Shown: one piece after another, positions 5,482 to 33,247 of the stretch
Layout of the letters: each line of letters starts with the position of its first letter
Position numbering within the stretch: the first letter of the stretch is position 1
From: Dysgonamonadaceae bacterium
Lineage (GTDB): Bacteria; Bacteroidota; Bacteroidia; Bacteroidales; Azobacteroidaceae
Length of the DNA stretch: 33,247 nucleotides
Direction: 5' to 3'
Assembly: GCA_031275735.1 (NCBI GenBank)
Contig: JAISOJ010000051.1
Location: 1-33,247, forward strand
Translations under genes and position numbers: made by a program
The notes under the pieces: model-generated
Seen by the model: the letters and a program-made list of their open reading frames with translations, nothing else
Databases searched by the model: none
Told to the model about the DNA's origin: nothing

Positions 5482-6621
5482 TTACTTTAATAATTTAGAT
5501 GCAATTACCATGCGTTGCACTTCCGAAGTTCCTTCGTATATTTCGGTGATTTTGGCGTCTCGCATCATTCTTTCTACAGGATATTCACGGGTGTAACCAT
5601 AACCACCATGCAATTGTACGGCTTTTGTTGTCGCTTCCATAGCCGTTTCGGCGGCAAACAGTTTAGCCATAGCAGATTCGGCTGTATAATTTTGATTCGT
5701 ATCTTTCTTGTAAGCGGCAGAATAAACTAACAGGCGGGCTGCTTGAATTTTTGTTTCTAAGTCGGCTAATTGAAATTGCGTATTTTGAAATTGGCTGATC
5801 GGTTTTCCGAATTGTTTACGTTCTTTTACATATTTTACTGTTTCGTCTAAAGCTCCTTGTGCAATTCCCAATGCTTGCGCCGCAATACCAATACGTCCGC
5901 CGTCCAATGTTTTCATCGCTATACCAAAACCTTTACCTTCTTGTCCTAAGAGATTTTCTTTGGGAACAATACAGTTTTCAAAAATCAGTTCTCCGGTGGA
6001 AGAGCCTCTAATACCCATTTTTTTTTCTTTTTTCCCGACGGAAAATCCGGGGAACCCGTTTTCGACAATGAAAGCGGAGATTCCTCTTGTTCCTAACGAT
6101 TTGTCAGTCATAGCAAAAATGATATATACATGAGCATATCCGGCATTGGTAATGAATATTTTAGATCCGTTCAAGATGTAATTATCGCCGTCTTTTACCG
6201 CCATCGTTTGCTGCGCCGAAGCATCTGTGCCGGCATTGGGTTCGGTCAGTCCAAAAGCGCCAATCCATTCTCCCGAAGCGATTTTTGGTAAATATTTGTT
6301 TTTTTGTTCGAGGGTTCCCGATTCATAAATGGGCGCTCCGCAGAGGGAAGTGTGCGAAGAAAGGATAACTCCTGTGGTCGCGCAAACTCTTGATAATTCC
6401 TCGACTGCCATAACATACATCCGGTTGTTTCCGCCTGCTCCTTTGTATTCAAAAGGGAAAGGGATACCCATCAATCCTAATTGAGCCATTTTTTTTACAT
6501 TTTCCAGCGGATAGCGTTCCAATTCGTCTATTTCGGCGGCAACGGGTTTTATCTCTTTTTCTGCAAATTTTCTGATCATTTGCAGGAATAATTCTTGTTG
6601 CTTAGTCAATGAGAAGTCCAT
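5482..6621 (-). CDS. bcd: Short-chain acyl-CoA dehydrogenase (butyryl-CoA dehydrogenase type)
   Basis: 379 residues from the ATG at 6621 (MDFSLTKQQELF, the usual family start). The frame can be extended to a TTG at 6630 that overlaps the atoA stop, but the ATG start leaves a normal 5-bp gap. Family marks include FGLTEPNAGTDAS and FITNAGYAHVYIIFA for FAD binding. The catalytic base is probably Glu363 in EIYEGTSEVQ. With EtfAB it reduces crotonyl-CoA, made by the ammonia-lyase of this operon, to butyryl-CoA. Substrate choice is inferred from the operon. The product then donates CoA to acetoacetate through AtoDA. Confidence 0.92.
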   Translation of the reverse strand: MDFSLTKQQELFLQMIRKFAEKEIKPVAAEIDELERYPLENVKKMAQLGLMGIPFPFEYKGAGGNNRMYVMAVEELSRVCATTGVILSSHTSLCGAPIYESGTLEQKNKYLPKIASGEWIGAFGLTEPNAGTDASAQQTMAVKDGDNYILNGSKIFITNAGYAHVYIIFAMTDKSLGTRGISAFIVENGFPGFSVGKKEKKMGIRGSSTGELIFENCIVPKENLLGQEGKGFGIAMKTLDGGRIGIAAQALGIAQGALDETVKYVKERKQFGKPISQFQNTQFQLADLETKIQAARLLVYSAAYKKDTNQNYTAESAMAKLFAAETAMEATTKAVQLHGGYGYTREYPVERMMRDAKITEIYEGTSEVQRMVIASKLLK

Positions 6622-7292: not shown

Positions 7293-8090
7293 TTATTTTT
7301 TAATTTTTAGATTTCTTCTTTCCATTTCTTGGGCAATGAACGACGCCACGTCGTCGGCGTAAGTATTCATACCGAATCCGGCGTCGTAACCCAGTTCTTT
7401 TGCTAATTCGTGTGAAATACGCGGACCTCCGCAAATCAAGATTACTTTGTCGCGAAGATTTTCTGCTTCAAGCATTTCAACTAATTCGGCGAGGTTTCCG
7501 ATATGGATATCTTTTTGGGTTACAGTTTGCGATACCAATAAAGCGTCCGCTTTCAATTCAATGGCTTTTGCAATAAAATCTTCGTTCAATATCTGGCTGC
7601 CGAGGTTATAGGCTTCGAACATTTCGTAACGTTCCAAGCCATAGTGTCCGGCAAAGCCTTTCATATTCATAATTGCATCGATACCTACTGTATGGGCATC
7701 TGTACCGGTACTCGCGCCTATGACAACAATGGGGCGTCCGATATGAGTACGAATAAAATGATCGGTTTCGTGCATGTCCCATTTTGTCGATTCCACTTTA
7801 GGTACGCGGATTGTTGTATAATCAACTGTTTGCGAACAATTTCCGTAACAATTAACAAAAGTGAAACCTTCCGTTAGTTCATGCATGTAAACTACTTGCG
7901 GGTTGTCTAAACCCAATTTTCGGAGCAACAGTTTAGCCGCTTCCATCGCTTCGTCGCCGATAGGGACAGGAAGAGTAAAGCTCAATTGCATTTTCCCGTC
8001 GTTCATTGTATCGCCGTAAGGCTTTACCTTCTTCAGGTCAAGCGTCCGGTCAAAATCGTTTTTTTCTGTCGAATACAATCCACCGCTCAT
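7293..8090 (-). CDS. kamE: Beta-lysine 5,6-aminomutase, beta (cobalamin-binding) subunit
   Basis: 265 residues. The base-off cobalamin motif DxHxxG is present as DAHTVG (Asp131-Gly136), with His133 as the lower cobalt ligand. Lys144 in MNMKGFAGHYG sits exactly at the position of the PLP-binding Lys144 described for the Clostridium sticklandii enzyme. With KamD it moves the terminal amino group of beta-lysine (or D-lysine) from C6 to C5, using adenosylcobalamin and PLP, and yields 3,5-diaminohexanoate. The gene begins inside the kamD stop (ATGA-type 4-bp overlap), which fits 1:1 production of the two subunits. Cytoplasmic. Confidence 0.95.
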   Translation of the reverse strand: MSGGLYSTEKNDFDRTLDLKKVKPYGDTMNDGKMQLSFTLPVPIGDEAMEAAKLLLRKLGLDNPQVVYMHELTEGFTFVNCYGNCSQTVDYTTIRVPKVESTKWDMHETDHFIRTHIGRPIVVIGASTGTDAHTVGIDAIMNMKGFAGHYGLERYEMFEAYNLGSQILNEDFIAKAIELKADALLVSQTVTQKDIHIGNLAELVEMLEAENLRDKVILICGGPRISHELAKELGYDAGFGMNTYADDVASFIAQEMERRNLKIKK

Positions 8091-11082: not shown

Positions 11083-12090
11083 TTACATCTGTTTTATGTC
11101 GTATACAGGTATCTTCAGGCTTTCTTGCAAGGCTTCGCTTAATCGAACGGAATCGAGCTGGTACCCATCCGGCGATTGAGGATTGATGCATACTCCGATG
11201 AATTTGTTTTTTAACGCCACTTTCAATTTTCCTCCGTTTTTCAGAAAGGCGTAATAGGATTCCGAAGAAGCAAAGATTCGAGTGAAATCTTTCACAATCA
11301 GAGTAATGTTCGGATTATGCTTTTGAATCCGCAAGAACCGTAAAAAGTTGTCGCTCACTATTCCTGCAACGAAAATAATGTTTCCGTACCGGAAAATATC
11401 TTCTTTACCGAATTCTTCCGACAATACGGAAGAAATTTGAAGGTCGTGAATTTCTCCTTCTTTGTCAATAGCCCAGATTCCTTTTTCAATACCGGACAAC
11501 CGGTCGGATAATTTTTGATCCGTCACTTCCGATTGAATCAAGTCGTATACGTACTTCGTTTTCCTGACTAATTCAGGTATGCTTTTTGACAAGGCGGCGC
11601 CGGTCGTCAGAATCAGGGCTTCGGTCACGCCGGGCGAACCTAAACTAAAACGTGAAATAGCTCCGTCGACAAGGGTAGTATGTACGCCCCTTTGCTTCAT
11701 TTTCACAATTAGTTCTTTCAGCGATCGGGTATCGGACGGTCCGGATAAAAGAATTTTTCCCGCAGTGACGGCTTTTGCCGTCACCAATCGTCCTAATGCC
11801 GTATAATTTTCACTCACATCGATGATTTCAGCCGTCAATTGTTTTTCGCGGTAATGTTTTTCGGAAGTAACAAAAAACATTCCTTCGCTGATTTCGATTT
11901 CAGGCTTTGCCGACTGCGTCACCCTGTCTATTCTTTCACCATCGACGCCGATAGAAGTAACGGCGAATAGTTTTCCCTCGTTTTTTATGTGATTCAGGAT
12001 ATAGTTCAGACATTCCGTTTTGCCGGTATTCTTTGCCATTCCCACAATGGAAACGCTTCGGTAATCGACTATTTCGTTGATGAAAGACAT
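11083..12090 (-). CDS. kamB: P-loop protein of the lysine operon, probable aminomutase maintenance factor
   Basis: 335 residues. A P-loop lies near the N-terminus, GMAKNTGKT (17-25), within VSIVGMAKNTGKTECLNYIL. No transmembrane segment is apparent and I recognise no other domain. Its place between kamA and the MutS-like kamC, 7 bp after kamA and 1 bp before kamC, matches the kamB gene of the clostridial lysine cluster. The family is proposed to act with KamC in reactivating or assembling the adenosylcobalamin enzyme KamDE, comparable in role to diol dehydratase reactivases but unrelated in sequence. The ATP or GTP preference cannot be read from the sequence. Confidence 0.8.
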   Translation of the reverse strand: MSFINEIVDYRSVSIVGMAKNTGKTECLNYILNHIKNEGKLFAVTSIGVDGERIDRVTQSAKPEIEISEGMFFVTSEKHYREKQLTAEIIDVSENYTALGRLVTAKAVTAGKILLSGPSDTRSLKELIVKMKQRGVHTTLVDGAISRFSLGSPGVTEALILTTGAALSKSIPELVRKTKYVYDLIQSEVTDQKLSDRLSGIEKGIWAIDKEGEIHDLQISSVLSEEFGKEDIFRYGNIIFVAGIVSDNFLRFLRIQKHNPNITLIVKDFTRIFASSESYYAFLKNGGKLKVALKNKFIGVCINPQSPDGYQLDSVRLSEALQESLKIPVYDIKQM

Positions 12091-12097
12091 GCATTTT

Positions 12098-13339
12098 TCA
12101 TTTTCCGTTTCTTTTGTTTCTTCTCAGTTCTTTCGGTTCGATAGATAACCGGACTCCGCTGAGAAGAGCAGCAACTCCTTCTTTGTTTTCTTTTTCACAT
12201 TCCGGACATTTACAACTTTCTTCGTAATTGACCGGTTGAGTGTAAGTGGTAACGACTCCTTCGTAGTTGCGCAAGATTATTTTCCCCGGCGATTGTGAAA
12301 TCAAATACGTAGGCATTACCGGAATTTTTCCGCCTCCTCCGGGTGCGTCTACGACAAAAGTCGGCACTGCGTAACCGGAAGTATGGCCGCGAAGATTTTC
12401 AATAATTTCTATTCCCTTCGAAACAGGCGTCCGGAAATGCTCAATACCGGTAGAAAGATCGCATTGGTAGATGTAATAAGGTCTGACACGCATCTTTACG
12501 AGGTTGTGTACTAATTGTTTCATTGTATACACGCAATCGTTAATTCCACGCAACAAGACCGATTGATTTCCTAACGGTATCCCCGCATCTGCCATGCGGG
12601 CGCAGGCTTCTATCGATTCTTCCGTAATTTCGTCGGAATGATTGAAATGGGTATTCACCCAAATTGGGTGGTATTTTTTTAGCATATTCACCAATTCCGG
12701 CGTAATGCGTTGCGGAAGAACAACCGGAACGCGAGTTCCGATGCGGATAATTTCGACATGAGGAATTACCCTTAGTTTTTTGATGATGTATTCCAGTTGT
12801 TCGTCCGAAATCAACAAAGCGTCTCCTCCCGAAAGCAAGACGTCGCGTACTTGAGGCGTGCGGGCAATATAGTCGATGCAACGGTCGATCCGTTCTCTGG
12901 GCATAGCTGCATCGTGATGCCCGGCGAAACGTCTTCTTGTACAATGCCGGCAGTACATGGAACATTGGTCGGTGATTAAAAACAAAACCCTATCGGGATA
13001 ACGGTGAGTCAACCCGGGTACGGGGGAATCACTGTCTTCATGGAGAGGATCATTCAAATCTGCCGCCGCCTTATGCAATTCCATAATCGAAGGCACCGAT
13101 TGCATCCGAATAGGGCAATGCCTATTGTCGTTGTCAATCAAACTCAAATAGTAAGGTGTGATGGCCATTCGGATGGTTTTAAGGGATTCGATGATTGCTT
13201 CTTCCTCCTCTACTGTGAGGTCGAGGTATTTTTTCAATTCATCGACTGTTTCGATCCGGTTTCTCACCTGCCATTTCCAGTCGTTCCATTCGCTATCGGC
13301 GACTTGTGGAAAAAACTGTTTGCGTTTACTTTCGGTCAT
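12098..13339 (-). CDS. kamA: L-lysine 2,3-aminomutase (radical SAM, PLP)
   Basis: 413 residues. The radical SAM cluster motif CSMYCRHC has Cys126, Cys130 and Cys133. PLP would bind Lys338 in [13 protein letters not shown]. Substrate-binding Asp294 (QCDLSTG) and Asp331 (VVDAPGG) are present. Structural zinc ligands Cys269 (RGINDC) and Cys376, Cys378, Cys381 (ESCKCPEC) are all there, each one residue later than in the Clostridium subterminale enzyme. It converts L-lysine to L-beta-lysine, the first pathway step. The zinc tail distinguishes it from the shorter EpmB-type proteins. It follows kdd by 15 bp and precedes kamB by 7 bp. Confidence 0.96.
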
Positions 13340-23375: not shown

Positions 23376-24752
23376 TTACTTTCCTACGTGATTACTCATT
23401 AAGTATTGCAGAGGGGAAAAGATGCGTGAAAACAAACTCCGGTCGTCGGTAATAATTTCGGCTTGCCCGTTCAGTTCGCCGGTAAAATCCAGCACTTTAC
23501 CCGTACCGGTTTTCAGTCCTTGGGGCAATTCCACTTCAATCGAGTAGTTGTTTTCGTTGGGAATAAGCGAGATAGTCCGCACTCGTCCTTGCAAAGTTCC
23601 GTATTCCATGTAAGGATATCCTTGTACTTTGATGTTTACCCGTTGTCCGGATTTAATTTTTCCCGAACCGGAAGAAGAACTTTGGATTCGCCCGATAATC
23701 TCGCCGGAATGGTGCGGAACGACTGCCAACACTTTATCGCCGGCAGTAACAAATTGATTGCTTTTCCAAAATGAATTAAAAGTAACCGTACCGTCTAAAG
23801 GGCTGATCAACAAATAAGTTTGTTCCCAACTTTCGATGGCGGACAGCAATTCGCCGTAGGCAGTTCTTAATTCCGACAAAACGCTGTTTTTTTCGCGCAT
23901 GTATTGAACATCCAATTTGGAAACCGATTCGATCAGTTGGCCATGTTCAATTTCATTGGAAGCCATACTTGTTTGCAATTGCTGCAACGACAAGCGGATA
24001 TTTAAGAATGTGTTTTCGGCGGCTTCCATTTCCGCTTCGGAAATAATCTTTTTTTCGTATAATCTTTTTTCCCGTTCATAAGCCATCCGGGCGATACTTA
24101 ATTCTTCTTCTTTCAATTCCAGTTGTTTCTTCAAGGCGGAAGAATAATGCTTATGACCGTTTATTTGCAATTGTAAAGCCTCTTTTTCTTTGCTGGTTGA
24201 ATTATAAGAGAGGAAGTTTTCATAATTGGTCGTTGTACGGAGAAAAGAAGAAAACGTATTTTGCAGGTTCCCCAATTCGTAATTGCTCGTTAATAAAGCA
24301 GGAGGAAAAATCAGGCTTGAATCGGTAATCAGGCATTGGGTCAAACCGGTTTTAAGCCTGTCGACGTCGTCTGTAAATGCCGGATTTTCAATTACCGCCA
24401 GCATTTGCCCCCGTTTGACTTCGCCTTTATCCGTACAATTCAATTCCTTAATTCTGCCGGAAGCTTTGGCGACCATCCATACCGGCGGATTTTCGGTGGT
24501 AACGACTATTTCGCCTACCACCATATCGGGGTATTTGAAAAAAAAGCTACCCACAATCAACAAGACAATTACCCCGCAGATTACCGATATGCCGCTGCGA
24601 ACTAAGATGTGCGGCGGACGAGTCAGAATATCATGCATTTCCTCGCTGCGTAATTCCAATTCGCCGGACGACGACGGCTGATTTGCGGCGTAAGGTATGC
24701 GGCGTGCGCGACTTGAATCTGCTTGGCGGTTGTTTAATTTATTTTCTGTCAT
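23376..24752 (-). CDS. HlyD-family membrane fusion protein of the peptide exporter
   Basis: 458 residues. A cytoplasmic N-terminus (about 1-50) precedes one membrane helix (about 51-74, LVRSGISVICGVIVLLIVGS). Then come a biotinyl-lipoyl-like half (ASGRIKELNCTDKGEVKRGQ), a long coiled-coil hairpin (about 165-310) and the matching C-terminal half (LLISPLDGTVTFNSFWKSNQ). This is the adaptor of type I secretion and C39 exporters, bridging the inner-membrane ABC protein to the outer-membrane channel. It starts 7 bp after the ABC transporter gene, so the two are co-transcribed. No TolC-like gene is seen in the window. Its stop lies 19 bp from the sufB stop. Confidence 0.9.
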   Translation of the reverse strand: MTENKLNNRQADSSRARRIPYAANQPSSSGELELRSEEMHDILTRPPHILVRSGISVICGVIVLLIVGSFFFKYPDMVVGEIVVTTENPPVWMVAKASGRIKELNCTDKGEVKRGQMLAVIENPAFTDDVDRLKTGLTQCLITDSSLIFPPALLTSNYELGNLQNTFSSFLRTTTNYENFLSYNSTSKEKEALQLQINGHKHYSSALKKQLELKEEELSIARMAYEREKRLYEKKIISEAEMEAAENTFLNIRLSLQQLQTSMASNEIEHGQLIESVSKLDVQYMREKNSVLSELRTAYGELLSAIESWEQTYLLISPLDGTVTFNSFWKSNQFVTAGDKVLAVVPHHSGEIIGRIQSSSSGSGKIKSGQRVNIKVQGYPYMEYGTLQGRVRTISLIPNENNYSIEVELPQGLKTGTGKVLDFTGELNGQAEIITDDRSLFSRIFSPLQYLMSNHVGK

Positions 24753-24759
24753 TGAACTA

Positions 24760-26955
24760 TTACAATTCTAATTGATTTTTAACCAAGTGGTAATAAACGC
24801 CTTGTTTTTTTGTTAATTCTTCGTGAGTACCGACTTCCGCTATTTCTCCTTTTTCCAGCACGACTATTTGATCGGCGTTTCGGACGGTGCTTAGACGATG
24901 GGCCACAATAACGACCGTTTTGCCTCGAAAAAAAGCGGCCAGATTATCCATAATCGTCCGTTCGTTGTTGGCGTCCAACGCATTAGTAGCTTCGTCGAAA
25001 AATACAAATTCAGGATCCTTGTATACGGCGCGTGCGATCAGGATGCGTTGTTTTTGCCCTTGGCTTAAACCGTGTCCTTCACTACCTATTTTCGTGTTGT
25101 AGGATAAAGGCAACGATTCGACGAAATCGTGGATATTGGCTACAACCGCCGCATGGAGTAATCGTTCCTTATCGATGCGTTCTACGCCAGGGGCAATATT
25201 GCGGGCAATGGTATCCGAAAAGATGAAGCCGTCTTGCATTACTACGCCGCAACGTTTGCGCCATTCTCTTACGCTATAAGTATCTAAATTATTATTACCT
25301 AAATAAATAGCACCTTTTTTCAAAGGATAGAATCCCAAAAGCAATTTGACTAAGGTGGTTTTTCCGCTACCGCTCATGCCTACAATAGCCGTCTGCTTAT
25401 GAGCGGGAATCGATATGTGAACGTCTTTCAGCGCCGGTACGCCAACGGCGGTTTCGTCGTACGAAAAAGTGATATTTTCCATGCGAAGGTCTTTGTTTCC
25501 GGGTATTTCCCTGACTTTGACTGCATCGGTCGATTCTTCGTCTTCTTTGCCATGTATTTCGCTAAGACGTTCCAAGCTGAGCCTGGCGTCTTGCGTTGAA
25601 CGGAAAAAACCGATGAGTTGATCGACCGGACCATTCAGTTGACCGATAATATATTGTACCGAAAGCATCATACCCAGCGTCATTTGTCCGCTCACCACCA
25701 ATTGGGCAACCAAGACCGTAATCAGGATATTTTTCGTTTGATTAATCAGGATAGCGCCCGAATCTTGGTATTGCCCTAGGGCTAAACCTTTGATCCGCAA
25801 ACGGAACAAGCGTGCCTGGATGCGTTCCCATTCCCAACGTTTTTGTTGTTCGCAAACGTTGAGTTTAATCTCCTGCATTCCGGTAACAAGCTGAATTACA
25901 TTGCTTTGATGTGCCGATTGCTGGGCGAAATTCTTATGATCGAGTTCGGCCCGCTTTTTCATGAACAGCCAGACCCAAAGGAAATACAAGGCGCTTCCGA
26001 CAAGGAAAATTCCGAATATTTTCAAGCTGTACAGGCAAAGAATAATCCCGAATATGACAATATTGAACATCGAAAAAAGGATGCTCAGCGTGGAATTAGT
26101 CAGGAAACTTTGGATACGGCTATGGTCGCCGATACGTTGAAGGATATCGCCGGTCATTTTCGTATCGAAATAGCCGATAGGCAGACGCATCAGTTTGATG
26201 AGAAAATCGGAAATCAAGGCGATATTGATTCTTGTGCCCAGATGCAACAATATCCATCCGCGGATAAATTCGACGGTCGAACTGCTGAGTGTCAGCGTCA
26301 ATTGGGCAATCAGTATTAAATAAATAAAGCCTATATTTCCGCTATTAACGCCGATATCGACAATGGACTGGGTGAGGAAAGGGAAAATCAATTGGAGTAA
26401 GCTCCCAAAAAGCAAGCCCAGAAAAAGCTGGAAGGCCAGGTTTTTATAAGGTCTTAGGTAGTTAAAGAGAAATGAAAAGCCTTTGCGGTTGATTTTTTCT
26501 TCTTCTTTGGAATAAAAATCGGGCGTTGGTTCCAATAACAAGGCTATGCCTTCGTTTTCGCCCTGATTCTTTGTGCTGTGCCAGCAATTACAAAATTCTT
26601 CTTGCGTGTATTTGAGTTTTCCGGAAGCTGGGTCGGCTACGTAAACCCAAACTCGCTTTCCTTTCTTTTTGATCCGGTAGACGACGACGAAATGGTTTTG
26701 ATTCCAATGAACGATGCAGGGTAAGGGAGCTTCTTCCAATTTTTGAAAAGAAAACCGAGCGCCCAAAGTCCGGAAACCGATTTGTTCGGCGGCTTCGCTG
26801 ATACCCAACAAGGAAACGCCTTCGCGCGAGATATGGGATTTTTCGCGGAGACCTTCCAAAGAATAAATACGGCCGTAATGGGCGGCGATCATACGGAGAC
26901 AGGCCGGACCGCAATCCATGGCGTCGTGCTGGAGGTAATGGGGGAAAGTTGGCAT
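24760..26955 (-). CDS. Peptidase C39 domain ABC exporter (leader-cleaving bacteriocin/RiPP transporter)
   Basis: 731 residues. The N-terminal C39 cysteine peptidase (about 1-130) has Gln9, catalytic Cys15 (HDAMDCGPACL), His88 (HWNQNHFVVVY) and Asp108 (ADPA), all intact. A six-helix membrane domain follows (about 165-450). The ATPase domain has Walker A GMSGSGKTT near 525, signature LSQGQKQR near 630, Walker B FVFFDEATNALD near 650 and the AHR switch. The enzyme cuts peptides after a double-glycine leader and exports the core. The 62-residue precursor encoded upstream ends its leader in VEGG, a fitting substrate. The first ~190 bp are repeated in decayed form at 32880-33070. Its composition is clearly less AT-rich than the radical SAM gene that precedes it by 31 bp. 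Confidence 0.95.
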   Translation of the reverse strand: MPTFPHYLQHDAMDCGPACLRMIAAHYGRIYSLEGLREKSHISREGVSLLGISEAAEQIGFRTLGARFSFQKLEEAPLPCIVHWNQNHFVVVYRIKKKGKRVWVYVADPASGKLKYTQEEFCNCWHSTKNQGENEGIALLLEPTPDFYSKEEEKINRKGFSFLFNYLRPYKNLAFQLFLGLLFGSLLQLIFPFLTQSIVDIGVNSGNIGFIYLILIAQLTLTLSSSTVEFIRGWILLHLGTRINIALISDFLIKLMRLPIGYFDTKMTGDILQRIGDHSRIQSFLTNSTLSILFSMFNIVIFGIILCLYSLKIFGIFLVGSALYFLWVWLFMKKRAELDHKNFAQQSAHQSNVIQLVTGMQEIKLNVCEQQKRWEWERIQARLFRLRIKGLALGQYQDSGAILINQTKNILITVLVAQLVVSGQMTLGMMLSVQYIIGQLNGPVDQLIGFFRSTQDARLSLERLSEIHGKEDEESTDAVKVREIPGNKDLRMENITFSYDETAVGVPALKDVHISIPAHKQTAIVGMSGSGKTTLVKLLLGFYPLKKGAIYLGNNNLDTYSVREWRKRCGVVMQDGFIFSDTIARNIAPGVERIDKERLLHAAVVANIHDFVESLPLSYNTKIGSEGHGLSQGQKQRILIARAVYKDPEFVFFDEATNALDANNERTIMDNLAAFFRGKTVVIVAHRLSTVRNADQIVVLEKGEIAEVGTHEELTKKQGVYYHLVKNQLEL

Positions 26956-26986
26956 TATTTGTCTTTAATATTATAGATATTGTAAC

Positions 26987-28843
26987 CTAAGCCAAAATTA
27001 TATCTGTATTAATTATACTTAAAATTTCTGAATAATCATAATTAGTGTAGAGAAAATATTCTGATTTTAACTCTAAAATAATTGGTATGAGTTCAGCTTC
27101 TTCAATAATAAAATTCCTTTTATTTAACATTTTTATTATTTCTTGTAAAGAAACAACTTCATAATTACATATCTTCAAAATTTCCCAATATATTGGTTTG
27201 TCGAATTCTATTTCTTTGATTTTTTTTCCATTATACAATTCTCGATAAAATATGCGACCTTCATCTTGTATTAAAATATATTTATATTCATTATCTAGAT
27301 AATGCTTTTCTATTAGCTCAAAATAAGTCCACATATTATTTATTTTATTTCCAACAAAAGCAAATAATGTAAATCTATCTTTTTGTTCAAAATATGTTTT
27401 AGGCAACATATAGACAATTGGATTTTCTGTCCAATTATCTAATTTATGTTCAGCTTCTATTTCTTTAAAATACCTAGAAGGATAACCAATAGCCAAATTA
27501 CTAACATTAAGATCAATATTTTTGTTTTTTAAATAGAATCTGTAAAAATGCAAATTATCTATAGATTCCTTTATATCATCATCTGTTTCTTCTAACAATC
27601 CGCGAAGAATATTAAGACCTCCTATTGTAATGGAAAAATGAGTAGCCCATTTTATAAATAATAAATTACTTGCGACAGTATTTTTTTTAGAAATCTTTCT
27701 CAATAAAGAATCACTAGGAGATTCATACCCAATTTGTACATGAGAGAAACCCGCTAAAGACATTTTCTTAATAATATTATAACTTAGCCCCTTAGAAATA
27801 ATCTCTGATAGCAAAATTTCAAAGTCTTCATGAACATTTTTTAAACAAATAAGTTTATCTAAAAATTCTTCGAATACTTTAATATTCCTTCCAACCATAT
27901 CATTGTCAAGAAATAAAAATTTTTTTATACTATAAGTATTCATTAACATATTTAATTCATCAATAATACGTTGATTATTTTTAACACGATAACGATATCC
28001 GTCATTCAAGAAGCAAAACTTACATTTTTGCCAGTGGCATCCACGACTCCCTTCGATTGGAAGTCTAATATCTTTAATGTTTTTTCTATTTTGAACAAAA
28101 AAATCAGAATAATCAGGTACAATAGATGAGTTTAAGTCGAAAAATTTCTTTTCGCGAGAAGCAGACATCTTTAAAGATTCTCCTTCTCTATAAATTAGAA
28201 AAGGAATATCTTTATTGTTTTCATCCTTTTTATCCAAAACATTTTGGTATAATTGACACAATGAATATTCTCCTTCACCCCAAATAGCTAAATCATAAAA
28301 AGTAAAATTCCGCATAATGGCCAATGCTTCGTCTTTTGTTCCAATTCCACCGATTAGAATCGTTGTGCTAGGATTTAATTTCTTAACCAATTCACATATT
28401 ACATTTGCTGGTATTAATTGAAATAATTTAGCTGACACTCCAAATAATTTACAATTATGAATATCTAAATTATTTAATTCAGAAACAATTAATTCATGTA
28501 ATTTTAGGGCTGATTGCTTTAAATGCTGGTCGAAAAAGGTATCTTCATTTATTAATTGTGGTGCAAAAGATCTATATACATATTTAACTCTATCAAAGGC
28601 TTCTTTATCATTATTTTGTATAGCTATATAATTAAGAAAAAAAAGAATATTTATATAATCATTGTTAATAGGGTGATCTATTTTTAGAAAATCTTTATTA
28701 TAGTTATCTAAAAAAATATTCCAATAAAACACTTTTATTCCTTCGTATCCATTATTTGTTAAAAAACTTTTTAAAATAGACAAAGGAGGAGAAGGCCAGT
28801 CAATATTGACAGGGGGAAGACAATTTAAAATGAGTGTATTCAT
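26987..28843 (-). CDS. Cobalamin-binding radical SAM RiPP maturase (rSAM_ocin_1-like)
   Basis: 618 residues from the ATG at 28843 (MNTLILNCLPPVNIDWPSPP). An ATG at 28867 would add 8 residues but falls in a 13-bp inverted repeat. The N-terminal B12-binding fold is indicated by TTILIGGIGTKDEA and YDLAIWGEGEYSLCQL (about 160-200), without a DxHxxG motif. The radical SAM core begins EGSRGCHWQKCKFCFLNDGY with Cys269, Cys274 and Cys277, a C-x4-C-x2-C spacing. The context SRGCxW...C.FC.LN...YR is that of RiPP maturation radical SAM proteins (TIGR03975-like), whose own spacing is also longer than C-x3-C-x2-C. A C-terminal winged-helix-like part (about 545-618) could bind the leader. Expected chemistry is C-methylation or another radical change of the precursor; which is unknown. 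Confidence 0.85.
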   Translation of the reverse strand: MNTLILNCLPPVNIDWPSPPLSILKSFLTNNGYEGIKVFYWNIFLDNYNKDFLKIDHPINNDYINILFFLNYIAIQNNDKEAFDRVKYVYRSFAPQLINEDTFFDQHLKQSALKLHELIVSELNNLDIHNCKLFGVSAKLFQLIPANVICELVKKLNPSTTILIGGIGTKDEALAIMRNFTFYDLAIWGEGEYSLCQLYQNVLDKKDENNKDIPFLIYREGESLKMSASREKKFFDLNSSIVPDYSDFFVQNRKNIKDIRLPIEGSRGCHWQKCKFCFLNDGYRYRVKNNQRIIDELNMLMNTYSIKKFLFLDNDMVGRNIKVFEEFLDKLICLKNVHEDFEILLSEIISKGLSYNIIKKMSLAGFSHVQIGYESPSDSLLRKISKKNTVASNLLFIKWATHFSITIGGLNILRGLLEETDDDIKESIDNLHFYRFYLKNKNIDLNVSNLAIGYPSRYFKEIEAEHKLDNWTENPIVYMLPKTYFEQKDRFTLFAFVGNKINNMWTYFELIEKHYLDNEYKYILIQDEGRIFYRELYNGKKIKEIEFDKPIYWEILKICNYEVVSLQEIIKMLNKRNFIIEEAELIPIILELKSEYFLYTNYDYSEILSIINTDIILA

Positions 28844-28866
28844 AAATTTATAAATTAAATAGTTCA

Positions 28867-28910
28867 TATCATTAAGTCAAATAATTTGATAATTATCTGA
28901 CTTAATGATA
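28867..28910. promoter_or_regulatory. Perfect 13-bp inverted repeat between precursor and maturase genes
   Basis: TATCATTAAGTCA (28867-28879) and TGACTTAATGATA (28898-28910) are perfect reverse complements around an 18-base loop, which itself contains the palindrome GATAATTATC. It lies 24 bases before the maturase start, after the precursor stop. No T tract follows on the minus strand. It may lower read-through or stabilise the precursor message, or be an operator. Confidence 0.6.
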
Positions 28911-28964
28911 AATAACTAATACATTCTATTCGTAAAACTACTATTCACCTCAATACTCTGAATA

Positions 28965-28998
28965 ACAAATCTAAATTGCAAATATCTAACAGATTTGT
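28965..28998. promoter_or_regulatory. Second, weaker inverted repeat after the precursor gene
   Basis: ACAAATCT (28965-28972) and AGATTTGT (28991-28998) form an 8-bp stem with an 18-base loop, 35 bases after the precursor stop on the minus strand. In AT-rich DNA an 8-bp stem may be chance. With the 13-bp repeat downstream it would give two successive hairpins in the precursor-maturase spacer. Confidence 0.3.
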
Positions 28999-29032
28999 AA
29001 TTTCTATAGAAATGAATAAGCAATTGAAGAAA

Positions 29033-29221
29033 TTAGAACTTTACAACGGCATTTATTCCAATATTAGGGGGAGGAGCATACGTATAAGTTTGTTTGGGAG
29101 GAGTATACCCAATTCCCACTTGATTCTCAATACCACCTTCAACTTTTGACAAATCATTATTCGTCAACTCATTAATAATAGAACATTTAATTTCATTTGA
29201 AAATAATTTTTTCTTTTTCAT
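29033..29221 (-). CDS. Double-glycine leader precursor peptide (putative RiPP precursor)
   Basis: 62 residues from the ATG at 29221 (MKKKKLFSNEIK). A longer frame from 29245 adds 8 residues without the typical MKKK start. The leader (1-30) ends in LTNNDLSKVEGG, with hydrophobic residues at -4, -7 and -12 and Gly at -2 and -1, the pattern cut by C39 peptidases. The 32-residue core is rich in Pro, Tyr, Gly and Asn, has no Cys, and contains GYTPPK and YTYAPPPN. Lack of Cys rules out a sactipeptide or lanthipeptide. It lies 189 bp upstream of the B12-radical SAM maturase and in line with the C39 exporter, so the three form a minimal biosynthesis and export unit. The final product is unknown. Confidence 0.85.
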   Translation of the reverse strand: MKKKKLFSNEIKCSIINELTNNDLSKVEGGIENQVGIGYTPPKQTYTYAPPPNIGINAVVKF

Positions 29222-29563: not shown

Positions 29564-30241
29564 TTACCATTCATTTAAAACCGGAGTCACATATTTGAAC
29601 GAATTCCAATTATTCCTATAATAACTATTCATAAACCTAATTCCAATTCCCATATTTTTGTAAATTTTAAATTGTAAATCTATTCCATAATAATTGCCTC
29701 CATTAATTGTAGGTTGCAGTAGCGGGTTTATACCTTCCCTCAGGGAAATTTGTCCAAAAGCTGTTAAACGTATTTTCTCATTGGGTTGCAAAACGGTTTG
29801 TAATGAAATCGAAGCGTTATTATATCGATTAGGCTGTAGGTATCCGACATATGAACTGGATATTGAAAAATTAATGTTGCCCCAAAAATAATCGTTTAAT
29901 TTGAATGCATTGTTTATCCCTACTACATCGCCGCCTTCCCTCCAGTCATAATAATTAAAACTGAAAGGAGATATCGTTAGATATTCAGAGTCAAAATAAT
30001 AAAGAGGCAGTGAAATATAATTTATTTTCATGGATGGAGAGAGGGAGAAAGAATCAGGAAATAAATCAGGAGAAATAGATGGCCGTATATCCGGTTTCTC
30101 TTTAAATAGAGAATATTCAGCTTGGACGCGACGCGATACTGTATCGTTTGAGAGCGAATCTAATTTTATTTCGCTATTCTGTGAATAAGAAATAAATACA
30201 AACTGAGCAAGTAAAATAACTGTTAAAATAAATCGTCCCAT
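29564..30241 (-). CDS. Small secreted beta-barrel-like outer membrane protein, family unknown
   Basis: 225 residues with a signal peptide (about 1-20, MGRFILTVILLAQFVFISYS, then QNSE). After a polar Pro/Ser-rich stretch (about 40-70) the protein alternates hydrophobic and polar residues with many Tyr and Asn, as in outer-membrane beta-strands (FWGNINFSISSSYVGYLQPN, then IRLTAFGQISLREGINPLLQ, YYGIDLQFKIYKNMGIGIRF). It has no lipobox. I do not recognise the family. It starts 10 bp after the larger barrel gene and is surely co-transcribed. Possible roles are a partner of that receptor, part of peptide release or uptake, or self-protection; none is shown. Confidence 0.65.
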   Translation of the reverse strand: MGRFILTVILLAQFVFISYSQNSEIKLDSLSNDTVSRRVQAEYSLFKEKPDIRPSISPDLFPDSFSLSPSMKINYISLPLYYFDSEYLTISPFSFNYYDWREGGDVVGINNAFKLNDYFWGNINFSISSSYVGYLQPNRYNNASISLQTVLQPNEKIRLTAFGQISLREGINPLLQPTINGGNYYGIDLQFKIYKNMGIGIRFMNSYYRNNWNSFKYVTPVLNEW

Positions 30242-30251
30242 AATTTTTAAA

Positions 30252-32543
30252 TTATTTGCCGAATCGAGAAGTATTGATTTCTTTTCGCTCTTTTTCCGTT
30301 ACATTTCCTCCAAAGCGATAAACGAACGATAAAGAAACAAAAGCTCGCGAATCCGGAAGTACATCCATATCTATATTTTGATTATCGTATTTCATTGTTA
30401 AATTAGGCGTCCAAGTATCCAAAATATCTGTACTCTTTAAATTGAGTTCTGCTTTTTTATTGCTGGAGGTCCATTTAATACCGGCGTCCAATTTGTATAC
30501 AGTCGTTAGTTCGGATGGCCCCTGCAAACTATTTGAGTAATAAAATCCCTTCAAATCTATTTTTATGTCCGGTTGATTCGAGAGCTTGATTGTATTGTCC
30601 CATTGAACATAAAAAATATACTTGCTTTTATCAAAAGAAATATCATGGAAATAAGTATTTTTCACCCTATAATAAAACCCATTCAAGGTTAAATGGGATA
30701 TATACCTTTTTTTCGTAAATGGAATCGTCAGATTGATGCCGCTCATCTGTTGATAGTCAAAATTAATGGTTTGGTAGATTAAAGATAATTTATTCGTTGA
30801 TTGATAAGGCAATTGGACAAAATAATCATCATTATAAATATTATATAACGTAACTATATATCTGTTTTTTAATATATAAGAAAGTTGTGCGGAATAAGAA
30901 ATATAGGGCTTCAAACGGGGATTACCCCGTATTTCCGCATAGCCGTTGAGATATGAAATATGGTCATTTATCTCCCAATAAGTAGGATAAATTTTATTCG
31001 TGGAAAAATTGAATTGGAAAATATGATCGGGAGAAAAAAAATAAGTGGACGATAAAGTCGGAAATAAAGACCATTCATCGTAATCATTCAATTTATAATA
31101 TTCAGTCATTAATGCCCCGGAAAGAGAAAGTTTAGGAGATATCGATTTGGAAAAGCCAGCATACATATCATAAGTATACTCCTTTTGATTATAATTTGTA
31201 TTCAATCCGCTCCAATCATACCCGTTTTGTGAATAGTAAAATTGAGAACTTTTTTCTTCTACATAAGTAAATTCGATACCATAACTTAAAGACCAATTAT
31301 TCTTTATTTGATGTTTTTGGTCAAGATAGGCCTTAATCCGATCAATACTTTGATCGGAATTTGTGCTGAATACGGTTTCTTTTTCTCTACTGGTATCTTT
31401 GAAATCCTGTTTCATCTGATTTTTATAATGTGTGTAATCAGCGCCTCCGCTTAGTCCAAGCCCGGAAGTATAATTCATACTTATATTATGCATTTGTATA
31501 GGAACAGTATTAGTCTTCTCATTGAAAGAATTGGAATAATTTCCCACCGCATCTTCCAAGGAATTATATTTCGGCACAAATTGAGTTGTATAAACCCCAC
31601 TGATATTATCTTTTTCAGTCAAAGCATAATCTAAACCTAAACGTAACAAATGAGTCAGTGATTCAGATTTGCCACGATTCGTTTGATTAATATTATAGAG
31701 TTGATTTTCAAAAAAATGGTGTGAATCAAGATCTAATCCTGTTCTTGTTTTTGATTCATTGACAGAATAAAGAATGTCTGTATAAATTTTCGAATTATTA
31801 TAAAAAAGACTTGCCCCTGTCCTATAATTATCATAGAACTTTTGCTCGTATCCGAGGTTTATTTGTCCAAATAAATTTTCAAAATGATCTTTTTTCATAA
31901 TTAAATTGATAGCAGCTCCTCTTACATGATATTGAGCAGGAGCAACATACATTATTTCGGCTTTGTTTATCATGGAGGATGGCATATTTTTTAGTAATTC
32001 AGCTAATTGAGGATAGGGCATAGTGGAAGGCTTTCCATTTATTATTATAGATAGTGTATTGGCGCCGGTAAGTAATAAATAGCCATTATCTTCCCTTACG
32101 CCAGGAAGTTCCAAAAGTGCGTCATAAGCGTTATTGACCGGTTTATTTTCGATCAAAAAAGGCATGTTATAGACAAGCTTGCCTTCAGATACTTCGATCA
32201 ATGGTCTCCTTCCTCTAACGCTTACTTCTTGTAACAGATTCGTTTTACGTTTCATACGAACAATCCCTACATCGGGATTGGTATATTCTTTTGTTTCTGT
32301 TTCGTACAACAAATGCTGAATGATTAACCGGAATGGTTTAACTGCTTTATTATAGGAAAAATTACCTAAAGTATCTGTATAGACAGACTGGACATAGATA
32401 GAATCCAGCGTCTGTAATACAACAGTTGCGTACTCGATAGAAATGCCTTCTTCATTTAAAACCCTACCTCGTATTTCCTGCCCTTGAACAGAAAAAAAAC
32501 TAAATAATGCAACAAAATTTATAATAATTTTTTTTATTTTCAT
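30252..32543 (-). CDS. Outer-membrane beta-barrel protein of the TonB-receptor-like PF14905 type
   Basis: 763 residues. Signal peptide about 1-22 (MKIKKIIINFVALFSFFSVQ). A carboxypeptidase-regulatory-like domain follows (about 23-100: IRGRVLNEEGISIEYATVVL...GNFSYN). Then comes a plug-like domain (about 110-220: AYDALLELPGVREDNGYLLL, LSIIINGKPSTMPYPQLAEL, and INLIMKK) and a long Tyr/Asn-rich barrel ending SLSFVYRFGGNVTEKE. This is the layout of outer_membrane beta-barrel family proteins related to SusC/FecA receptors. No extra N-terminal anti-sigma signal domain is present. In a peptide-producing locus it may import or bind the peptide, export it, or belong to a sensing circuit. The ligand cannot be read. 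The ~330 bp upstream contain no gene on this strand. Confidence 0.88.
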   Translation of the reverse strand: MKIKKIIINFVALFSFFSVQGQEIRGRVLNEEGISIEYATVVLQTLDSIYVQSVYTDTLGNFSYNKAVKPFRLIIQHLLYETETKEYTNPDVGIVRMKRKTNLLQEVSVRGRRPLIEVSEGKLVYNMPFLIENKPVNNAYDALLELPGVREDNGYLLLTGANTLSIIINGKPSTMPYPQLAELLKNMPSSMINKAEIMYVAPAQYHVRGAAINLIMKKDHFENLFGQINLGYEQKFYDNYRTGASLFYNNSKIYTDILYSVNESKTRTGLDLDSHHFFENQLYNINQTNRGKSESLTHLLRLGLDYALTEKDNISGVYTTQFVPKYNSLEDAVGNYSNSFNEKTNTVPIQMHNISMNYTSGLGLSGGADYTHYKNQMKQDFKDTSREKETVFSTNSDQSIDRIKAYLDQKHQIKNNWSLSYGIEFTYVEEKSSQFYYSQNGYDWSGLNTNYNQKEYTYDMYAGFSKSISPKLSLSGALMTEYYKLNDYDEWSLFPTLSSTYFFSPDHIFQFNFSTNKIYPTYWEINDHISYLNGYAEIRGNPRLKPYISYSAQLSYILKNRYIVTLYNIYNDDYFVQLPYQSTNKLSLIYQTINFDYQQMSGINLTIPFTKKRYISHLTLNGFYYRVKNTYFHDISFDKSKYIFYVQWDNTIKLSNQPDIKIDLKGFYYSNSLQGPSELTTVYKLDAGIKWTSSNKKAELNLKSTDILDTWTPNLTMKYDNQNIDMDVLPDSRAFVSLSFVYRFGGNVTEKERKEINTSRFGK

Positions 32544-32879: not shown

Positions 32880-33070
32880 TCCAATCGTTTGTAAATCAAT
32901 GTTTCAATTGCGTTGCTATCCGGTATGGAAACGCCTTTATGTGAAATATGGGATTTTTAGCAGAAATTTTTCATGAAATGAACATGATCTTAGTGCGTGG
33001 CAATCATGCGAAGGCAAGCCGGACCGCAATCCATGGCGTCGTGCTGGAGGTAAGAAGGAAAAGATTTCAT
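32880..33070 (-). pseudogene. Decayed 5' fragment of a C39 peptidase/ABC exporter gene
   Basis: The minus strand from the ATG at 33070 reads MKSFP then SYLQHDAMDCGPACLRMIAT and His, followed by an in-frame TAA. The intact exporter starts MPTFPHYLQHDAMDCGPACL. After the stop the homology continues without indels: KSHIS-x-x-GVS aligns with KSHISREGVS, with a second stop between, and then AIETLIYKRL against AAEQIGFRTL. About 38 bases around the active-site Cys (33013-33052) are almost identical to the intact gene, whereas downstream bases differ widely. The ATG overlaps the TGA of the upstream SPASM gene, so this was once the next gene of that operon. It breaks off within the first ~65 codons. 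Confidence 0.85.
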
Positions 33071-33247
33071 TCATGCATATTATTTCGAGCTATCCATTCT
33101 TCTACAGGATAATATCCTTCTTCACCGGCCCATTTGGCGATGTATGGGTTATAGTTGCATTTGGCCGGCTGAGAATAGATATCATTGGAATCTTGTAAAT
33201 ATGCTCTACAATCGGTGCAAATGTAACGAAATTCGCAATCTTTACAA
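33067..33247 (-). CDS. gwsS: C-terminal end of a grasp-with-spasm SPASM-domain peptide maturase (cut by window end)
   Basis: The last 59 codons of a gene entering from beyond the window. The visible part begins CKDCEFRYICTDCRAYLQDS and continues IYSQPAKCNYNPYIAKW. The Cys pattern C-x2-C-x5-C-x2-C plus a later Cys belongs to a SPASM auxiliary Fe-S domain. The wording CxDCEFRxxCxDCRAY...PAKCNYNPY matches GwsS-type maturases (TIGR04193) of the grasp-with-spasm peptide system, which act with an ATP-grasp partner. Its TGA overlaps by ATGA the start of the decayed exporter gene. The radical SAM core and the ATP-grasp gene would lie to the right of the window. Confidence 0.8.
   Translation of the reverse strand, partial: CKDCEFRYICTDCRAYLQDSNDIYSQPAKCNYNPYIAKWAGEEGYYPVEEWIARNNMHE

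Follow-up and report, generated by a model that had tools for sequence, protein, structure and literature searches.

A double-glycine leader peptide paired with a B12-type radical SAM enzyme beside a C39 exporter in a Dysgonamonadaceae bacterium

The window analyzed here, 33,247 bp in length, is one whole contig (C34) of a draft genome (2.43 Mb, 75.86% complete) of a Dysgonamonadaceae bacterium (GenBank assembly GCA_031275735.1, contig JAISOJ010000051.1), and it carries a putative cassette for a ribosomally synthesized and posttranslationally modified peptide (RiPP). The cluster genes, all on the minus strand, encode an outer membrane beta-barrel protein, a 225-amino-acid protein, a proline-rich 62-amino-acid peptide, a radical S-adenosylmethionine (SAM) enzyme, a C39 peptidase-ATP-binding cassette (ABC) exporter, and a HlyD-type membrane fusion protein. 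The peptide gene (positions 29033 to 29221) is an open reading frame (ORF) encoding a leader that runs up to VEGG and the core IENQVGIGYTPPKQTYTYAPPPNIGINAVVKF. The B12-type radical SAM gene (26987 to 28867, with a likely start at 28843 that gives 618 amino acids) was recognized by its ORF, profiles, a Cx4Cx2C motif, and a structural model, and the 731-amino-acid exporter (24760 to 26955) was recognized by its ORF, Pfam matches, and the motifs DCGPAC, NHFV, and DPA. The HlyD gene (23376 to 24752), found by its ORF and a profile, lies just beyond the range named in the preliminary description of this DNA, which had reported a 62-amino-acid VEGG peptide, a cobalamin-type radical SAM enzyme, a C39 exporter, and HlyD in one direction; the ORFs, profiles, and model confirm this arrangement. 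Computational analysis yielded the genes, the GG leader, the B12 radical SAM fold, the pairing of peptide and enzyme in two genera, and an insertion beside an older exporter locus.

The peptide is a short gene-encoded precursor with a GG leader, as in double-glycine, C39-exported RiPPs. Its leader has Leu at -12, Asp at -8, Leu at -7, and Val at -4, followed by GG, which is close to the C39 leader rule Leu(-12)-X3-Glu(-8)-Leu(-7) given in PMC6363468, with Asp at -8 where the rule has Glu. The unmodified core has a calculated monoisotopic mass of 3488.834 Da. The bacteriocin_sig model matches the peptide barely over its cutoff. A leader-pattern scan of small ORFs, with a pattern defined after the peptide had been seen, found one in the window (60 simulated windows averaged 0.08) and none in 12 comparison loci, which are those of the enzyme relatives. 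The Nif11 and nitrile-hydratase leader models gave no match at an E value of 1, PHROGs held no family for the peptide, and none of the viral contigs searched matched. Seven plasmid records were returned with the peptide as the query (best E value, 0.1), five of them inside TrbI/VirB10 genes.

A search of 45 genomes of the taxonomic family with the single peptide detected a homolog in another genus (genome G038; E value, 0.03). The G038 peptide, with 60 amino acids, is 40% identical to that of the window and fits the leader rule of PMC6363468 exactly (Leu at -12, Glu at -8, and Leu at -7). Both peptides have GG, PPP, VKF, and a similar MKKK-x-LFS start, and the residues common to the two cores include Pro, Val, and Phe. 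In G038, 36 codons opening an enzyme of the same family lie 89 bp 3' of the peptide gene and are then cut off; the fragment scored 34.7 bits (E value, 7.6e-10) with an enzyme model built without the window sequence. Transposase genes, which we take to be IS3-like, run from there to the contig end. In the window, the enzyme gene follows on the same strand after 165 or 189 bp, depending on its start codon. The maturase gene is therefore beside the precursor and kept downstream of it in both peptide-bearing genomes among those searched, a small number in which one enzyme copy is broken, and the co-occurrence in relatives that the preliminary description had proposed as a check was encountered once, in G038. 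The pairing of this peptide with this kind of enzyme looks real, in two genera.

A two-peptide profile, searched in 393 genomes of the order and the 45 family genomes (the sets overlap), gave some match at an E value of 1 in 112 and 13 genomes, respectively, and no third precursor below an E value of 0.001 in either set. The profile includes the G038 row, so that its E value there (8e-34) arises by construction, and the independent values for G038 are those of the single-peptide search and the enzyme fragment. The other matches, with best E values of 0.002 (order) and 0.11 (family), were rejected as precursors. Six of these were inspected: those at loci L096, L108, L115, and L117 are or contain small GG peptides of other kinds, and those at L097 and L112 had no small GG peptide.

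The peptide and enzyme genes of the window are separated by an RNA hairpin of 20 pairs (28867 to 28910, minus strand; -22.3 kcal/mol; z score, -5.0) that extends to the earliest candidate start codon of the enzyme gene. A hairpin also forms in the corresponding gap of G038 (z score, -2.8). Rfam gave no match at the gathering score. A hairpin between genes is a usual means of setting peptide expression above that of the enzyme. A TAnnTTTG promoter element lies upstream of the G038 peptide gene but not upstream of that of the window.

The predicted model of the enzyme (predicted local distance difference test [pLDDT] score, 85.9) matches the cobalamin radical SAM structures OxsB, TsrM, CysS, and TokK at 14 to 17% identity, with OxsB as the best match, and the likeness covers residues 1 to about 520. 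The fold consists of an N-terminal B12-binding fold and a radical SAM core, as in class B, cobalamin-dependent radical SAM enzymes. Full-length relatives with 31 to 38% identity were found in 12 of the 392 other order genomes sampled, and the same 12 were recovered when the search was repeated from another center. At class level, only the window enzyme was found among 395 genomes at an E value of 1e-30; the small families of three relatives yielded no new members (1/2, 2/2, and 1/6 genomes, all already known), and a scan of genome contigs added one weak relative, from Cryomorpha (23%). The window enzyme scored below the cutoff of the Pfam B12-binding model, which 12 of the 13 enzyme family members match at an E value of 1 or better. 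One PHROGs family without an assigned function matches the enzyme (E value, 7.8e-16).

Among NCBIfam models, TIGR03975 (rSAM_ocin_1) scored best for the enzyme, with near full-length kinship (profile E value, 7.7e-40), at 158.7 bits versus a cutoff of 281.85; four of the 12 relatives, at 151.9, 165.9, 169.4, and 186.7 bits, are likewise under this cutoff. The cysteine motif is Cx4Cx2C in 13/13 family members and Cx7Cx2C in 4/4 comparison proteins. Cx7Cx2C is stated for PoyC and the bottromycin enzymes (PMC5682303) and would be a defining trait of the TIGR03975 model. The preliminary description had called the enzyme rSAM_ocin_1 type, and plain membership was rejected on both cutoff and motif. 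Because of this score and the Cx4Cx2C motif, the window enzyme and its relatives are placed by sequence as a sister group of the Cx7Cx2C RiPP C-methyltransferases.

Beyond the B12 and radical SAM core, the model has strands at residues 520 to 527, 530 to 537, and 540 to 546 and helices at 550 to 558, 566 to 575, and 582 to 594 (block pLDDT, 89 to 95). RiPP recognition elements are defined by a strict order of strands and helices (PMC12710340), and the order given there is present in model residues 520 to 594. No PqqD-type sequence match was listed, and no sequence library supports a recognition element in the enzyme. Weak matches to Lant_dehydr_N (1/13 members; E value, 0.02) and to a winged-helix model (3/13 members; best E value, 0.014) belong to a set of 27 families, most of them chance matches. 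The best 50 VIA-align matches include no protein that is itself a recognition element; the radical SAM core takes up that list, which therefore excludes nothing. The C-terminal domain is a lead, suggested by the model, as a candidate leader-recognition domain.

The rSAM_ocin_1 family, to which PoyB, PoyC, and the bottromycin enzymes presumably belong, shares the B12 radical SAM architecture and the peptide context with the window system but differs in the cysteine spacing. OxsB also has Cx4Cx2C in a printed alignment. The substrates of OxsB, TsrM, CysS, and TokK are small molecules or a free amino acid, and the C-terminal domain of the window enzyme (residues 520 to 618) lies beyond most alignments to these four. 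GenD1 is also said to have Cx4Cx2C (PMC4340712). The Bacteroidales clusters of radical SAM enzymes and peptidase-containing ABC transporters in PMC10352776 have GG precursors, a radical SAM enzyme, and a C39 exporter, as in the window, and the words B12 and cobalamin are absent from the main text of that paper. Grasp-with-SPASM clusters (TIGR04193) have another maturase class; the end of such a maturase gene lies directly upstream in the window, and no ATP-grasp was seen among seven scanned window proteins. Among the open-access papers listed, none was recognized as describing, for this order, a C39-exported GG peptide together with a B12 radical SAM enzyme, which is weak evidence of newness.

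The cassette forms a block of 29% GC. The enzyme gene has a GC content of 25.4%, the peptide gene 30.7%, and the two genes upstream 32.7 and 32.9%, in contrast to 45.1% for the C39 gene and 43.7% for HlyD. The two upstream genes within the block encode the 225-amino-acid protein (29564 to 30241, minus strand), an ORF without a match in Pfam and NCBIfam at an E value of 1 or in PHROGs at 0.01, and the 763-amino-acid OMP_b-brl_3 beta-barrel protein (30252 to 32543, minus strand; PF14905, 149.6 bits). Farther upstream, on the same strand, lies the C-terminal end of a grasp-with-SPASM-type radical SAM maturase (33067 to 33247), cut by the contig end so that only its last 59 residues remain; it scored 68 bits with TIGR04193 over profile positions 294 to 333 of 342, where the whole-protein cutoff is 175. 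Its stop codon overlaps, as ATGA, the ATG of a remnant of a second C39 gene start (32927 to 33070, minus strand), recognized by alignment to intact C39 starts, which contains in-frame stops and is traceable for about 145 bp. The remnant shares 110/145 aligned bases (76%) with the intact C39 start in the window and, slightly closer, 113/143 (79%) with that of locus L084; an origin as a copy of the downstream gene is thus not required. In another genome (G004, locus L063), a C39 gene comes directly after a SPASM end that resembles this one (56% over 39 amino acids). Most simply, the low-GC block would have inserted next to a preexisting SPASM-C39 locus, leaving the C39 remnant behind.

Relatives of the exporter with 75 to 86% identity occur in nine family genomes. 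The DNA upstream of eight of these (75 to 83%; the ninth, which starts at the edge of its contig, was left out) encodes SPASM-type maturases of two kinds in five cases and the B12 enzyme in none, which indicates that the exporter is a generic fixed part beside which the maturases change. Cargo genes of the exporter relatives are mostly lower in GC than the exporter, where measured. The locus displays such maturase swapping beside a fixed C39 exporter through its GC contrast and gene scar. In two of the exporter loci, L081 (precursor at 7764 to 7985) and L084 (precursor at 6037 to 6264), the GG precursors contain Cys and are related to each other. A SPASM maturase and then the exporter come after each precursor; the two maturases are 87% identical, that of L084 is open over 497 codons, and genes that are presumably uvrA-like lie downstream in both genomes. 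In the same genome as the window, locus L093 (525 to 7400 of contig C64) encodes a GG peptide, a SPASM maturase, an S46 peptidase, an OMP_b-brl_3 protein, and a C39 exporter. A beta-barrel gene lies upstream of C39 in three loci, namely, the window, L082, and L093.

These findings partly bear out the interpretation in the preliminary description, namely, in its view of a RiPP-type cassette that has a GG leader, a B12-type radical SAM enzyme, and export through C39. With moderate confidence, the cassette is read as an acquired one whose enzyme C-methylates the core, likely at Pro, Val, or Phe, ahead of cleavage by the C39 domain and export. It is the kinship of the enzyme that suggests methylation, and bottromycin carries methyl groups that B12 radical SAM enzymes place on Val, Phe, and Pro (PMC5682303, PMC11285071). 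For substrate binding, methylation and its sites, export, and biological role, the following course is proposed. The cassette would have been acquired as a low-GC block, and the ribosome would produce the 62-amino-acid precursor, which the B12 enzyme may bind and C-methylate in its core. Cleavage behind VEGG by the C39 domain would follow, and the product would leave the cell through the ABC/HlyD exporter together with an outer membrane channel encoded elsewhere; killing of neighbors and signaling are both possible roles for it. Weighing against a dedicated pair, no such peptide was found with the peptide profile and the GG pattern near any of the 12 full-length relatives, where the contig extends <300 bp upstream in two (G091 and G302) and <500 bp downstream in one (G235); the peptide is thus no general partner of the enzyme family.

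In a rather unlikely alternative, the RiPP cassette is the same but its B12 enzyme, instead of methylating, cross-links two carbons or catalyzes a different rearrangement; PbsB joins ortho-tyrosines in this way in biphenomycin-like peptides. PbsB is a B12 radical SAM enzyme that cross-links aromatic side chains one residue apart in substrates first hydroxylated by a multinuclear nonheme iron-dependent oxidase (MNIO) (PMC12257519). The window core has Tyr-Thr-Tyr, and OxsB, the best structural match, is no plain methylase; however, no MNIO for the prior step was seen among seven scanned proteins of the block and its flanks, and a conserved Tyr-X-Tyr cross-link site was rejected since the G038 core has Phe-Ile-Gly instead. 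A maturase is not a requirement for GG peptides that leave through C39 exporters, and, less probably still, the peptide might be an unmodified exported bacteriocin-like or signal peptide, with the radical SAM gene a chance neighbor that has another job, as the 12 relatives with no such peptide found alongside would allow. Chance adjacency is nevertheless very unlikely because the enzyme start lies 3' of the peptide on the same strand in two genera and full-length relatives occur in just 12 of the 392 genomes. The least probable account is a decaying, nonfunctional insertion: the SPASM gene followed by a broken C39 start and the broken G038 enzyme would fit gene debris at an exporter locus, but all six window genes, from the barrel gene through HlyD, are open, and the peptide retains the leader rules and the core residues common with G038.

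It may tentatively be suggested that the cassette represents a new RiPP class with Pro-rich, Cys-free cores ending in VKF, modified by an unstudied Cx4Cx2C B12 radical SAM clade with its own C-terminal leader-binding domain, and that the low-GC block moves between exporter loci that dock interchangeable maturases. To our knowledge, few B12 radical SAM peptide methylases have been characterized, and a sister group of the Cx7Cx2C enzymes, available together with a substrate and an exporter, would offer a simple system in which to study peptide C-methylation.

Of the 12 full-length relatives, two have a Peptidase_Mx1-like gene directly upstream (26.3 and 24.4 bits; cutoff, 25.6), at L035 (10234 to 11085) and L037 (12693 to 13487), as a different, possibly conserved pair with the enzyme. 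In one of these two genomes (G305), the terminal part of an ABC transporter gene is present about 3 kb upstream; the contig does not reach the start of that gene, the part that would encode a C39 domain. The neighboring genes of the remaining relatives bear no visible RiPP sign, apart from two further observations. In G347, a second Cx4Cx2C B12 radical SAM gene (L036, 2294 to 4132) stands directly 3' of the relative, and the tree places its product with a Cryomorpha protein (L003). In G288, a small ORF for a Lys/Pro-rich protein of 74 amino acids (L039, 11649 to 11873) lies 126 bp upstream of a long-branched relative; a shorter ORF farther upstream (12079 to 12210) repeats its GVKPTxNPRT stretch, and the 74-amino-acid protein might be a substrate of another kind.
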